Positions 1 through 35,976 of a stretch of DNA of 50,082 nucleotides are shown here, piece after piece. The DNA lies in assembly GCA_944323625.1 (NCBI GenBank), contig CALUTD010000017.1:1-50082 (forward strand). The letters are read 5' to 3'. The stretch is from Candidatus Gastranaerophilales bacterium. GTDB lineage: Bacteria > Cyanobacteriota > Vampirovibrionia > Gastranaerophilales > Gastranaerophilaceae. The stretch's first letter is position 1, and every line of letters starts with the position of its first letter. The notes beneath the pieces are model-generated. The model saw only the letters and a program-made list of their open reading frames with translations, was not told the DNA's origin and searched no databases. Made by a program: the position numbers and the translations under genes.

Positions 1-185
1 TTTAAATCAATATTTCATAAGAAATATTGATTTTATTTTGTTTAAATATTGATAAATATTGGTATATAATTATTATTACATAAGAGAATATATAATATGA
101 AAAAGATAAAATCATTTACACTTGCTGAAGTTTTAATCACCCTGGTAATTATAGGTATTATTGCAGCTATAACTGTTCCTGTTAT
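1..185 (+). repeat. 185-bp direct repeat, copy 1 (prepilin 5' cassette)
   Basis: These bases are identical to 971-1155 over the full length. The repeat holds an inverted repeat (4-33), an AT-rich promoter region with a TATAAT at 65-70, the ribosome-binding region and the first ~30 codons of a prepilin-like gene. Identity stops abruptly at base 186, inside codon 30, after which the two genes are strongly diverged. The left end may extend beyond the window. No good -35 box was found at the right distance from the TATAAT. Confidence 0.95.
4..33. repeat. Inverted repeat, 13-bp arms, upstream of prepilin gene
   Basis: Bases 4-16 (AAATCAATATTTC) pair perfectly with 21-33 across a 4-base ATAA loop, and a T-rich stretch follows. 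It could be the terminator of a gene lying left of the window or an operator for the prepilin promoter. The second copy at 974-1003 has no gene directly upstream on the plus strand other than the orphan leader, which slightly favours a regulatory role. Confidence 0.6.
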
Positions 186-822
186 AGTTAACAAATATCA
201 AGAAAGAATTTTGGTAGAGCGCTTAAAACAAACATATTCAATTTTTTCGCAGGCTTATTTAATGGCTGTGAGAGATAATGGAGCTATAGAAGATTGGGAT
301 TTAGGAACGAAAGATTCTCAGGCGGGAGCCAAAAAAATATATGATATATTAAAACCTTATTTGAATAAAGCAAAAGAATGTGAAACCGATTCAGGCTGTT
401 TTTATTCGGGGACATATAAGTCATTGTTTGGCTCACAATATGCCTGGCAGCCTTCGACTCATAATGTATATTCAAGGGGCGTTCTTGCAAACGGTACAAC
501 ATTTGCTACATGGTCTGCAGGAAGCGGCTGTAAAACAAATATGAGTATATCAGGCACCGGAAAATATAGCCATGCCTGCGGCGCAATTCACGTTGATATA
601 AATGGGGATAAAGCTCCTAATAAAGCAGGTGTTGATTACTTTTCCCTTTTAATTGCAAGAGATGGTATTCTTCCATCTGGAGGTAAAGATTATAAATCAC
701 CATATAATCTAAAATGTAAATATCAAGATACATCAAATACAAACGGAGAAGCATGTGCGTACTGGGTCATAGCAAAGGGCAATATGGACTATAGAAGGCG
801 CGATATTTCGAATCAATATTAA
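97..822 (+). CDS. Prepilin-like (type II secretion/type IV pilin N-terminus) protein A
   Basis: A 241-aa protein beginning with a short basic leader, then Ser6-Phe7 and the class III signal FTLAEVLIT, so Glu is at mature position +5. A hydrophobic helix covers residues 7-30. A prepilin peptidase would cleave between Ser6 and Phe7; the residue before the cut is Ser, not the usual Gly. The C-terminal two thirds are exported, contain several cysteines, and carry a DINGDKAPNKAG-like loop (about residue 168) found in all paralogues of this window, which resembles the calcium loop of major pseudopilins (inference). The start is supported by its equivalence with the paralogue at 1067. The target and partners are unknown. 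Confidence 0.85.
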   Translation: MKKIKSFTLAEVLITLVIIGIIAAITVPVIVNKYQERILVERLKQTYSIFSQAYLMAVRDNGAIEDWDLGTKDSQAGAKKIYDILKPYLNKAKECETDSGCFYSGTYKSLFGSQYAWQPSTHNVYSRGVLANGTTFATWSAGSGCKTNMSISGTGKYSHACGAIHVDINGDKAPNKAGVDYFSLLIARDGILPSGGKDYKSPYNLKCKYQDTSNTNGEACAYWVIAKGNMDYRRRDISNQY

Positions 823-836
823 TTTTTATTTTCTTG

Positions 837-925
837 TTTGCTAAAAGCAGTGAATATATGTTAATATAAATCAAAAAGGAGATAAACTTATCAGTAAATC
901 AATAAACCGCCACGGGGGGGGGTAA
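837..925 (+). promoter_or_regulatory. Orphan poly-G prepilin leader (start codon lost)
   Basis: This stretch aligns with the leader at 35164-35258. It shares the promoter-like region, the Shine-Dalgarno GGAGATAAA, then ATC at 890-892 where the other has ATG, seven codons ending CGC CAC, nine G at 914-922 and TAA at 923-925. Neither the nine-G frame nor the eight-G frame leads to a prepilin; the latter reads into the 185-bp repeat and stops. It looks like a leader cut off from its gene body, probably by the event that placed the repeat copy at 971. Confidence 0.7.
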
Positions 926-970: not shown

Positions 971-1155
971 TTTAAATCAATATTTCATAAGAAATATTGA
1001 TTTTATTTTGTTTAAATATTGATAAATATTGGTATATAATTATTATTACATAAGAGAATATATAATATGAAAAAGATAAAATCATTTACACTTGCTGAAG
1101 TTTTAATCACCCTGGTAATTATAGGTATTATTGCAGCTATAACTGTTCCTGTTAT
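971..1155 (+). repeat. 185-bp direct repeat, copy 2 (prepilin 5' cassette)
   Basis: Perfect copy of bases 1-185, including the inverted repeat (here 974-1003), the promoter region and the first ~30 codons of the gene starting at 1067. The sharp end of identity inside the coding region implies a recent duplication or gene conversion of the 5' end only. Confidence 0.95.
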
Positions 1156-1750
1156 TATGGCAAATGCCCAAAAACAAGAAACAATTTCCAAATTAAAAAA
1201 AGTATATTCAACAATTTCCCAGGCAACAAAACGCGCAATTATTGACAACGGCCCTGCCGATGAATGGATAAATGATCCTAAATACGTAGATACAGGCCTA
1301 GACCAAGATTATTATTTTAACATATATATAAAACCGTATTACAATGCGGAAGATTGTTTTGCTCCAACCCCAAAATGTGGTTATACCGAAGATTCCGTAT
1401 GGACAAAATTAGATAATACCACAGACGAGGTACATTATTATGGCCCATTAGCGCATGCATTTATGTTGTCTGACGGAACTTATATTAAATTTTGGATGGA
1501 TGGCGGTCCTACAACGTGTGAAAATCCTTTAGGTGGTGGCTGTTATCCTCAATATTATGTAGATATTAACGGCCCTAAAGGGCCAAACAAATACGGACAT
1601 GATGTTTTTGTATTTGATATTGAATCACCTGAAGGATTAGTAGGTAATAAATATAATGAAGAATTTTGTAAAAAAGGTACAACAGGATACGGCTGTAGCA
1701 CAAAACTTATTAAGGATAACTGGGAGTTCAAAGATGATTATCCTTGGTAA
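1067..1750 (+). CDS. Prepilin-like protein B
   Basis: A 227-aa protein whose first ~30 residues are identical to protein A (97-822) because both lie in the 185-bp repeat. The remainder differs. It has the KSF-TLAEV prepilin signal, the transmembrane helix, cysteine pairs, the loop VDINGPKGPNKYG (near residue 165) and the C-terminal motif WEFKDDYPW. That terminal W-E-x-K-x-D-Y-P motif is shared with the proteins at 17577 and 35223. It is probably a minor pilin or pseudopilin of a type IV pilus/type II secretion-like machine. No assembly ATPase, platform protein or peptidase is in the window. Confidence 0.85.
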   Translation: MKKIKSFTLAEVLITLVIIGIIAAITVPVIMANAQKQETISKLKKVYSTISQATKRAIIDNGPADEWINDPKYVDTGLDQDYYFNIYIKPYYNAEDCFAPTPKCGYTEDSVWTKLDNTTDEVHYYGPLAHAFMLSDGTYIKFWMDGGPTTCENPLGGGCYPQYYVDINGPKGPNKYGHDVFVFDIESPEGLVGNKYNEEFCKKGTTGYGCSTKLIKDNWEFKDDYPW

Positions 1751-1807: not shown

Positions 1808-2543
1808 TTATTCTTGAAGCATTTTATATGTACAGCCTGCTCCATTCATATTACTTGTTGATGTATCTGAACAATAAGAATCATTAACACTATAGTATGT
1901 GCTACCTTTAGCTCCCATTGGTAATAGATCTCCGTCATTTGTTAATTGAAACATAAATAGGTCGCGGCCTAATCTGTTAGGACCTTTGCCAAATCCGTTT
2001 ACATCTGCTGAAATGCATGTCTGATTTGAAGTTTGATTTTCTAATAATATTAGTGTACCGTCATTTAAAACAAACTGTCCGTCATCAAAAAGACTAATAT
2101 TTACATTTGCTTTTCCGTTATAAGTTTTATATAGTATATGGTTTTCTCCTTTATAAGCGCTGTTATTTGTATTGGGAATACAAGCTTTATTGACATCGTC
2201 ATGTCCCAATCCGCAATCATACATTACATTTAAGTATTTTGTTAATTTTGATTTTAGAGTATGTAATGATAATTCGGAACTTGCTAGCCTTTCCCCGTTA
2301 TCAAACTGATAATTATCTAAAGCCTGTTTTAAAACAGAATAATTTTTCTTTAAAGAAGATTTTATTGCCTGATTTTGATAATTTGCAAAAATAATGGGAA
2401 CAGTTATAGCTGCAATAATCCCAATAACAACAAGCGTAATTAATACTTCCGTAAGCGTAAATGAAGGTTTTTTAAAAAAACAATAATTATTAAAAACTAC
2501 CTTCTTTCTACCCCCCCCCGTGGCGGTTTTTTGTTTTATTCAT
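1808..2543 (-). CDS. Prepilin-like protein C, interrupted by a nine-G tract
   Basis: Translation from ATG at 2543, preceded by the Shine-Dalgarno AAGGAG, gives MNKTKNRHGGG and then TAG directly after nine G (2519-2511). With eight G, or after a +1 ribosomal slip, the frame continues through RKKVV and a short linker into PSFTLTEVLITLVVIG, a full prepilin signal and transmembrane helix, and on to the C-terminal domain ending at 1808, about 244 residues in all. An ATG at 2224 lies far past the helix and would give a protein without the export signal, so it is unlikely to be the real start. The C-terminal domain has the VNGFGKGPNRLGRD loop of the family. The gene is either switched off in this template, read by frameshifting, or carries a homopolymer sequencing error; two independent loci with the same state make error less likely. 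Confidence 0.75.
2511..2543 (-). promoter_or_regulatory. Poly-G switch or frameshift site of prepilin C
   Basis: On the minus strand the element reads start codon, seven codons, nine G and TAG. The spacing from start codon to the first G is 24 bases, identical to the elements at 890 and 35223. The sequence flanking the tract, CGCCAC before and TA(A/G) after, is also the same in all three. Confidence 0.75.
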
Positions 2544-2828
2544 AAAAATTCTCCTTTTTTCTATCATAATCTTTTACTTTTTTTAATGTATAAATTATAT
2601 CATGTTCTTCAATAATAATGTATCCTTTTGAAGCAAGATACGGTATTAAAGATGCATACCCTTATAAGATGAAGTACCTTTATATTCGACTTCAAACTGT
2701 GCACTGTTCCTTTTCGAAGGAATAAGAGTATTTACAACGGGAGAAACTGATTCATCTTTCCCAAACATAAACCATATTGCAAAAGAAATTAATGTAAGAA
2801 GAAGTATGGTAATTACAGTTGTCAGCAT
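2536..2828 (-). pseudogene. Small membrane protein, frameshifted by one base, overlapping prepilin C
   Basis: From ATG at 2828 a 60-aa frame encodes one N-terminal transmembrane helix (residues 3-20) and ends at 2646. If one base is added near 2660 the frame continues with GYASLIPYLASKG and a protein-like stretch ending at TAA 2538-2536, giving 97 residues. That stop overlaps the ATG of prepilin C (ATGAATAA), the usual arrangement for translational coupling. The continuation and the overlap strongly suggest one original gene with a one-base deletion or sequence error. A TATAAT preceded by TGT (extended -10) lies at 2868-2860. Function unknown. Confidence 0.55.
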
Positions 2829-35170: not shown

Positions 35171-35258
35171 TTGCAAAAAATAGGGAATAATGATAATATA
35201 AGCAAAAAAAGGAGATAAAATTATGTATAAAACAGCAAAACGCCACGGGGGGGGGTAA
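35171..35258 (+). promoter_or_regulatory. Promoter, leader and poly-G switch of prepilin E
   Basis: TTGCAA at 35171-35176 and TAATAT at 35194-35199 (17-base spacer), Shine-Dalgarno GGAGATAAAA, ATG at 35223, seven codons ending CGC CAC, nine G at 35247-35255, then TAA at 35256. The whole block aligns with the orphan leader at 837-925. Confidence 0.7.
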
Positions 35259-35976
35259 AACAGGGTTAGTTTTTAAAAGTTCTTTCTCTTTTACGTTGGC
35301 AGAAGTACTTATTACGATTGTTGTTATTGGAATTATTGCAGCTATAACCGTACCTGTAGTAATTGCAAATCATAAAAAAATTGAAACAGCGGCGAAGTTG
35401 AAAAAATTTTATTCAAATATGTCTAATGCTGTTAAACTTCTTGAAACAGAATTTGGTTGTCCTATATATGAAATACCTAATATATACATGGATGGCCGTG
35501 ATGGATATGAATTAATGAAAGATAGTTTACAAAATGGAATTCTACAATATATAAATTACACGAGTATAGAGAAAATATCTCAAAATGATAACTATTACAA
35601 TAATATAAACAATATTATATATGGTAACGGAGATATTCCGATTGTATATTTAAATGACGGGTCAATATTTTTTGCGGATGAATGCACTGACACTATAATA
35701 TATGATATAAACGGAGAAAAAGGACCTAATGTTATGGGTAGAGATATGTTTCGTTTTTATTTTATGAGAAATGATGATGATCGGCCGGATCTTGCACAAT
35801 CCTTACCACACTTTAGTGCTGTATGGTTTGATCCAATACCTTGGGAAGAAAATAGCAGTATTGATATTTCTAGAGATACAATTTGGAATTCTTGCAAACA
35901 AAATGGAGGTTGGTGCAGTGCACTTATCCAGGTTGACGGCTGGGAGATTAAAGATGATTATCCGTTAAAATTATAA
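35223..35976 (+). CDS. Prepilin-like protein E, interrupted by a nine-G tract
   Basis: From ATG 35223 the frame is MYKTAKRHGGG, then TAA right after nine G. With eight G, or a +1 slip, it reads on as GGGKTGLVFKSS then FSFTLAEVLITIVVIG and a complete prepilin of about 250 residues to the stop at 35976. The only later start in the pilin frame (TTG 35296) falls inside the FTLAEV signal and would destroy it. The periplasmic domain carries DINGEKGPNVMGRD and ends WEIKDDYPLKL, very like protein D (17577). State in this template: in-frame stop, so off unless frameshifting or slippage occurs. Confidence 0.78.

Follow-up and report, generated by a model that had tools for sequence, protein, structure and literature searches.

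Why would a prepilin gene be kept one base out of frame with its start codon? This question is raised by a locus on the minus strand of the window, by which we mean the whole analysed stretch of 50,082 nucleotides (contig CALUTD010000017.1, positions 1-50,082, assembly GCA_944323625.1) from a Candidatus Gastranaerophilales genome, here called the host genome (G000). Minus-strand positions 2543..2508 read ATGAATAAAACAAAAAACCGCCAC-G9-TAG (codons ATG AAT AAA ACA AAA AAC CGC CAC GGG GGG GGG TAG). At G9 this is an 11-amino-acid leader ORF, MNKTKNRHGGG-stop (2508..2543, minus strand), with the ribosome binding site (RBS) AGGAG at 2551..2555 on the same strand and the G9 tract (2511..2519) located between CGCCAC and TAG. 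With one G fewer, or two more, the frame becomes MNKTKNRHGGGRKKVVFNNYCFFKKPSFTLTEVLITLVVIG and is open to the stop at 1808. The prepilin encoded there (1808..2510, minus strand) has no start of its own, carries the class III signal SFTLTEVLITLVVIG and is in frame with the leader ATG at G8 or G11. A type IV prepilin motif is present: the region 1808-2482 matches PF07963 with 22.9 bits (cut-off 21.2) and TIGR02532 with 20.0 bits (cut-off 16.3). The closest paralogue, C14:30296, shares 79% amino acid identity at a dN/dS of 0.24.

A copy of the same design is found on the plus strand, with an 11-amino-acid leader ORF, MYKTAKRHGGG-stop, at 35223..35258, a G9 tract at 35247..35255 and a prepilin at 35256..35976 that is again without its own start and in frame at G8 or G11. 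Its region 35278-35976 passes the TIGR02532 cut-off (17.1 versus 16.3 bits), and a PF07963 profile search of it gave no match. In neither prepilin is there an ATG between tract and cleavage motif. The first-pass annotation had described the minus-strand locus as an ATG followed after 24 bases by G9 and TAG, with the prepilin in frame only at one G fewer, and had pointed out that the copy at 35223 agrees in the start-to-G distance, the CGCCAC flank, the tract length and the immediate stop. All of this was confirmed, the stop being TAA at 35223. The flank is indeed present at both loci, but CGCCAC is merely one version of a more general (N)GCYAC. A chance origin of the G9 runs in the window is excluded, as six overlapping G8 matches (three G9 runs) were counted compared to a mean of 0.20 in shuffled sequences.

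The third run is part of a CGCCAC-G9-TAA site at 908..925 on the plus strand. Here the leader start is mutated, with ATC in place of ATG, and the prepilin is intact: 3′ of the site, at 1067..1750 (plus strand), lies a prepilin with its own RBS and ATG that matches both PF07963 and TIGR02532. Between the tract and this gene, a terminator-like hairpin with a 13-bp stem (AAATCAATATTTC/GAAATATTGATTT) and a subsequent T-rich run are located at 974..1003 (plus strand; +52..+81 from the tract end). The same layout defines class B loci, in which the leader ORF ends and is followed some 50-80 bases on by a hairpin with a T-rich tail, then by a promoter-like sequence, an RBS and an intact prepilin. The hairpin is conserved at other class B loci and carries compensated variants (AAGTCAACATTT/AAATGTTGACTT and AATCAATGC/GCATTGATT, beside the pair in the window). 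The sole reading that extends to +40..+127 is that of tract lengths of 2 mod 3, and in most cases it enters or passes the hairpin. Judging from this arrangement, leader and hairpin of class B are a possible candidate for a phase-variable attenuator. That a conserved leader peptide is itself the functional product is unlikely, since the 908 site lacks the ATG and poly-C leaders encode different peptides. At the start of the window (1-822), the contig begins within a class B spacer that is followed by another intact prepilin (97-822), which indicates that contig ends fall in the repeated 5′ region of prepilin genes.

The leader family in the host genome

In the host genome (1.99 Mb, 37 contigs, 96% complete), 121 tracts of G8 or longer were found, and 117 of them were fetched and classified. 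Prepilin leaders contain 57 of the 117, namely 54 on the sense strand (tract within 80 bases of a prepilin motif) and three in antisense orientation, where the leader carries poly-C; the family thus comprises at least 57 leaders. A further 25 tracts (class B) lie 80-400 bases 5′ of a prepilin, which in most cases comes with a start and an RBS of its own; the remaining 35 have no prepilin nearby. The two loci of the window, which the first-pass annotation took to be independent, are both members of this one large family with a common leader. A genome-wide count of CGCCAC-Gn-TAR sites, suggested there as a check, gave 18, and the broader pattern YAC-G7+ occurred 85 times; backward-read controls gave 0. 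An ATG exactly 24 bases before the tract, together with an RBS, was observed in 39/53 sense leaders, and a promoter-like TATAAT region is located upstream. At canonical leader loci we found no alternative ATG; the start lies only 5′ of the tract.

Tract lengths are narrowly distributed. All 117 tracts together comprise 63 G9, 46 G10, 6 G11 and 2 G8, and the 54 sense leaders 32 G9, 20 G10 and one each of G8 and G11. Read backwards through the tract, the prepilin frame stays open in 53/54 sense and 3/3 antisense leaders (56/57). In 42/53 sense leaders, a length of 2 mod 3 (G8, G11) would bring the prepilin into frame, and every canonical G9 leader requires n-1 or n+2 to join the start ORF with the pilin ORF. 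As assembled, only 7 of the 56 readable leaders are in frame (7/53 of the sense ones). Nevertheless, the frame continues for at least 158 codons past the FTL motif, i.e. over the full length, in 51/54 sense genes, and the closest prepilin pairs show dN/dS values of 0.09-0.38 over the whole gene. These long open frames and low ratios indicate that the prepilin frames are under selection although they are out of frame in the assembly. Three sense genes are clearly broken (C3:66287, where ATG is changed to ACG, C21:16392 and C21:34488). Recent paralogues differ in tract length (8/9 and 9/10). As in contingency genes, a repeat tract sets the frame of an otherwise intact gene.

Tract lengths in relatives and in other genes

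A second species, the rabbit-gut Candidatus Gastranaerophilales bin Lapin-001__bin51 (G008), carries CCGCCAC-G9-TAG on the opposite strand, so that its leaders read ATGGAAAATAAGCATCAAATCTA-C9-GTGGCGG... and are in frame at C8. Such poly-C leaders number 28 in this genome and three in the host genome. One of 33 leaders of the rabbit-gut species is in frame. Its prepilin-linked tracts are exactly 9 long in 39/41 cases versus 12/35 for its other tracts (p=1e-8), and those away from prepilins range from 8 to 12. This uniformity argues against free drift, since neither a length of 9 nor one of 10 is ON. Elsewhere in the order, prepilin leaders contain tracts of G8-G12 whose flanks are unrelated, and a search of the genome contigs of other species found no class A leader. 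Among 11 leaders outside these two genomes, eight are one base too long, three one base too short and none is in frame (L350 and L372 come from one genome; L353/L355 and L323/L327 are counted once each). Eight of eleven being exactly one base too long argues against slippage switching. Tract lengths that keep the pilin in frame in related genomes had been named as the outcome that would speak against the first-pass annotation; the relatives show the opposite and keep the pilin out of frame.

In genus g27, start-to-tract distances of 29 and 30 are paired with tracts of 12 and 11, respectively. The same genus contains G12 leaders of the same family that have no prepilin motif within 300 bases (L371, L373, L377-L380), several of them with a repeat like CGTCATCCTGAGCCGAAGGCGAAGGATC 3′ of the tract. 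The G9+ tracts are unevenly spread. The 35 genomes of genus g1 have a bimodal distribution without MutS1 loss, with 16-119 tracts each in about 20 genomes and near zero (0-3) in about 11, and other sampled genera have 0-6 per genome. Loss of mismatch repair was considered as a cause and rejected, because MutS1 was found in the host genome and in 57/58 genomes searched (E<=0.001).

Tracts of this genus are not confined to prepilins. They also interrupt long ORFs of other genes and occur in promoter spacers and in leaders of beta-helix/adhesin-like proteins, some of them ON and others OFF. Where a non-prepilin tract is flanked by two long frames, 28/57 are in frame, 17 are one base too long and 12 one too short. 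Prepilin leaders of the two genomes are in frame in 8/89 cases, compared to these 28/57 (Fisher p=8e-8; the frame rule for non-prepilin tracts is a different one, and since many leaders are related copies, the p-value overstates independence). The first-pass annotation had argued that equal tract lengths fit a maintained frameshift device better than random phase states. On this evidence the states are not random, whereas a frameshift device is not required.

The flanks of the non-prepilin G8+ tracts in the two genomes are biased as well, with C at -1 in 69-74% (genome C 15.6%), A at -2 in 46-54%, A/T at +1 in 69/70 and A at +2 in 49-74%. This flank is independent of orientation; in another genus the C follows the tract on its 3′ side. 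In two relatives (L195, L199), a G9/G10 tract separates a -35-like TTGCCA from a TATAAT box and is probably a promoter-spacer switch. A large beta-helix/adhesin-like family (L065, L067, L068, L070, L185, L179, L066) carries G9/G10 just before the signal peptide, and most of its members also show a CCAC-Gn-TAA flank. CGCCAC as a coding signature was rejected: it also occurs on the opposite strand of the rabbit-gut prepilins, in promoter spacers and in leaders of adhesin-like proteins, and the context AC-Gn-WA is common to non-prepilin tracts as well.

A proposed slippage switch and its rivals

We propose that the G tract is a phase-variation switch, operated by replication slippage between the start codon and the prepilin cleavage site and OFF by default. 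From the sequence patterns we assign this reading a probability of about two in three. The gene would be ON only at a tract length of 2 mod 3 (G8 or G11); at G9 or G10, translation from the ATG would stop within a few codons and no prepilin would be made. The part of a class III signal peptide before the cleavage site, in which the tract lies, is removed by prepilin peptidase. Removal of the glycine-rich leader would leave the mature pilin free of the tract, so that its glycines or prolines would be no burden on the pilin. With at least 57 leaders, nearly all at an OFF length, few pilins would be made per cell at once, and the selection would shift through slippage. Direct observations are the layout, the prepilin frames, which are open and conserved, the excess of OFF lengths and the spread across the order. 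From them we infer length switching in cells, a consequence for expression and selection for the OFF default, for which use of the pilus as a phage receptor or host recognition are possible reasons. Consistent with a switch in DNA, the tract serves in either orientation (poly-G and poly-C leaders), and the lengths in this AT-rich genome are mostly 9 and 10, as in Campylobacter poly-G tracts. On the other hand, the presence of MutS1 means that there is no loss of mismatch repair to raise slippage, which counts against slippage switching.

Alternatively, the off-by-one length could be the working state, with a low and controlled amount of prepilin obtained by +1 ribosomal frameshifting (at GGG-G or CCC-C) or by RNA polymerase slippage. 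The rarity of in-frame leaders would agree with this, as would the compensation of distance by tract length in genus g27, the stop codon directly after GGG in class A at G9, and the predominance of n_ON+1 in several differently flanked families (nearly all leaders of the rabbit-gut species as well as most of those from other species). The majority of OFF tracts exceed the in-frame length by exactly one base. However, the 20 G10 leaders of the host genome need the opposite shift, so that a +1 frameshift could not serve them, and seven leaders are in frame. Poly-G and poly-C leaders behave alike, which suits slippage of DNA, and non-prepilin tracts also show more n_ON+1 than n_ON-1 (17 versus 12), so part of this bias is general. 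No single conserved slippery site and phase was found across members, as both G9 and G10 are common, tracts are of G or of C and the stop varies. We therefore consider such reframing unlikely. Two pointers in the first-pass annotation lose their weight here: equal tract length is no sign of a frameshift device when 9 is the commonest contingency length and sister leaders have G10, and the immediate stop is missing in other leader classes and in the poly-C class. Slippage switching that is OFF by default accounts for the pattern with no need for a programmed frameshift.

The tract may also be a site of exchange between copies. Among host paralogues, the similarity of two copies over the 60 bases before the tract says little about their similarity over the 60 bases after it (r=0.22). 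Five pairs have 96-100% identity over 60 bases 3′ of the tract and 69-83% (mean 76%, background 68%) on the 5′ side. In C6:32335/39447, C9:6473/C17:914 and C2:58486/C12:63640, identity switches at the tract or the adjoining CGCCAC(A), at silent and noncoding sites too, and in some pairs it extends from the tract over about 150-220 bp. C9:30020 versus C9:30888 is the reverse case, with a shared leader and different downstream genes. Such abrupt changes in close paralogues mark the tract as a recombination joint, and these sequences would fit gene conversion or an exchange of cassettes that is bounded on one side by the tract. Pilin variation in Neisseria involves pilE and pilS, the pilS copies being without starts or promoters. 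By analogy, most copies could be a silent archive that donates by gene conversion to a few expressed prepilins, the exchanged segment being bounded on its left by the tract. The uncoupled flanks, the five near-identical pairs and the identity tracts starting at the G run speak for such an archive. Yet promoterless donor copies were not found, every copy having its own promoter-like region, RBS and start; dN/dS stays below 0.4 over the whole gene, seven copies are in frame, and in the rabbit-gut species the two sides are more coupled and often similar together (r=0.49). This makes an archive improbable. A combined reading, in which a G or C run near the start puts the prepilin genes of the order exactly one base out of frame, a low level of product arises by regulated reframing or by rare -1 slippage kept as a reserve, and the tract is also the exchange joint, appears quite unlikely, though less so than the archive.

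Least probable by far is that the off-frame lengths are homopolymer errors of sequencing or assembly. The genomes are metagenome assemblies, and G-tracts are hard to size (PMC9187656). But no single shift mends both the G9 and the G10 genes, several species from different assembly projects agree, and about half of the tracts that other genes carry in these assemblies are in frame, which argues against a general homopolymer error.

Known switches and the pilins of Gastranaerophilales

Switches of the Neisseria Opa genes use pentamer repeats. Like the leaders described here, Opa is a paralogous surface family with independent frame switches, and pilE/pilS concerns type IV pilins with recombination among copies; the host leaders differ in having their own start and a poly-G switch for each copy. 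The Opa family has about 11 phase-variable paralogues (PMC3745409). Poly-G contingency tracts of Campylobacter are 53% 9G and 26% 10G (PMC6321876). Campylobacter phasomes resemble the present case in being AT-rich, dominated by G9/G10 and mostly in surface genes, with both promoter-spacer and coding tracts (PMC6321876). Their strains have about 5-81 phase-variable genes of mixed kinds (PMC6321876), whereas about half of the 121 tracts in the host genome belong to a single gene family, in which OFF lengths strongly prevail and the flank of the tract is conserved.

The closest pattern is that of Bifidobacterium breve, where replication slippage of -1+3n at a G-tract rejoins the two parts of a pilin precursor (PMC9187656). 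As here, the pilin precursor genes of the gut commensal B. breve UCC2003 (bbr_0113, bbr_1889; sortase-dependent pili) are interrupted near their beginning by a G-tract, which separates a short ORF with the start from a long one; they are mostly off, and -1+3n slippage fuses the two ORFs (PMC9187656). The B. breve structures differ in being sortase pili with Sec signals in one or two clusters; the proteins studied here lack the LPXTG motif and sortase cluster, bear the type IV prepilin motif and have at least 57 leaders in both orientations. Slippage switching of the B. breve type, multiplied and applied to type IV prepilins, is the best reading of the pattern. We found no report of phase variation in Gastranaerophilales in the open-access literature searched, and the openings of its abstracts on Gastranaerophilales and type IV pili do not mention tract switching.

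If this reading is true, few described sets of slippage switches within a single gene family would be as large as this one from an uncultured gut lineage. Most such genes will appear truncated or start-less in ordinary annotation, so that the pilin repertoires of Gastranaerophilales would be misread. The OFF default raises the question of how local slippage alone would let a few of dozens of pilins be expressed.
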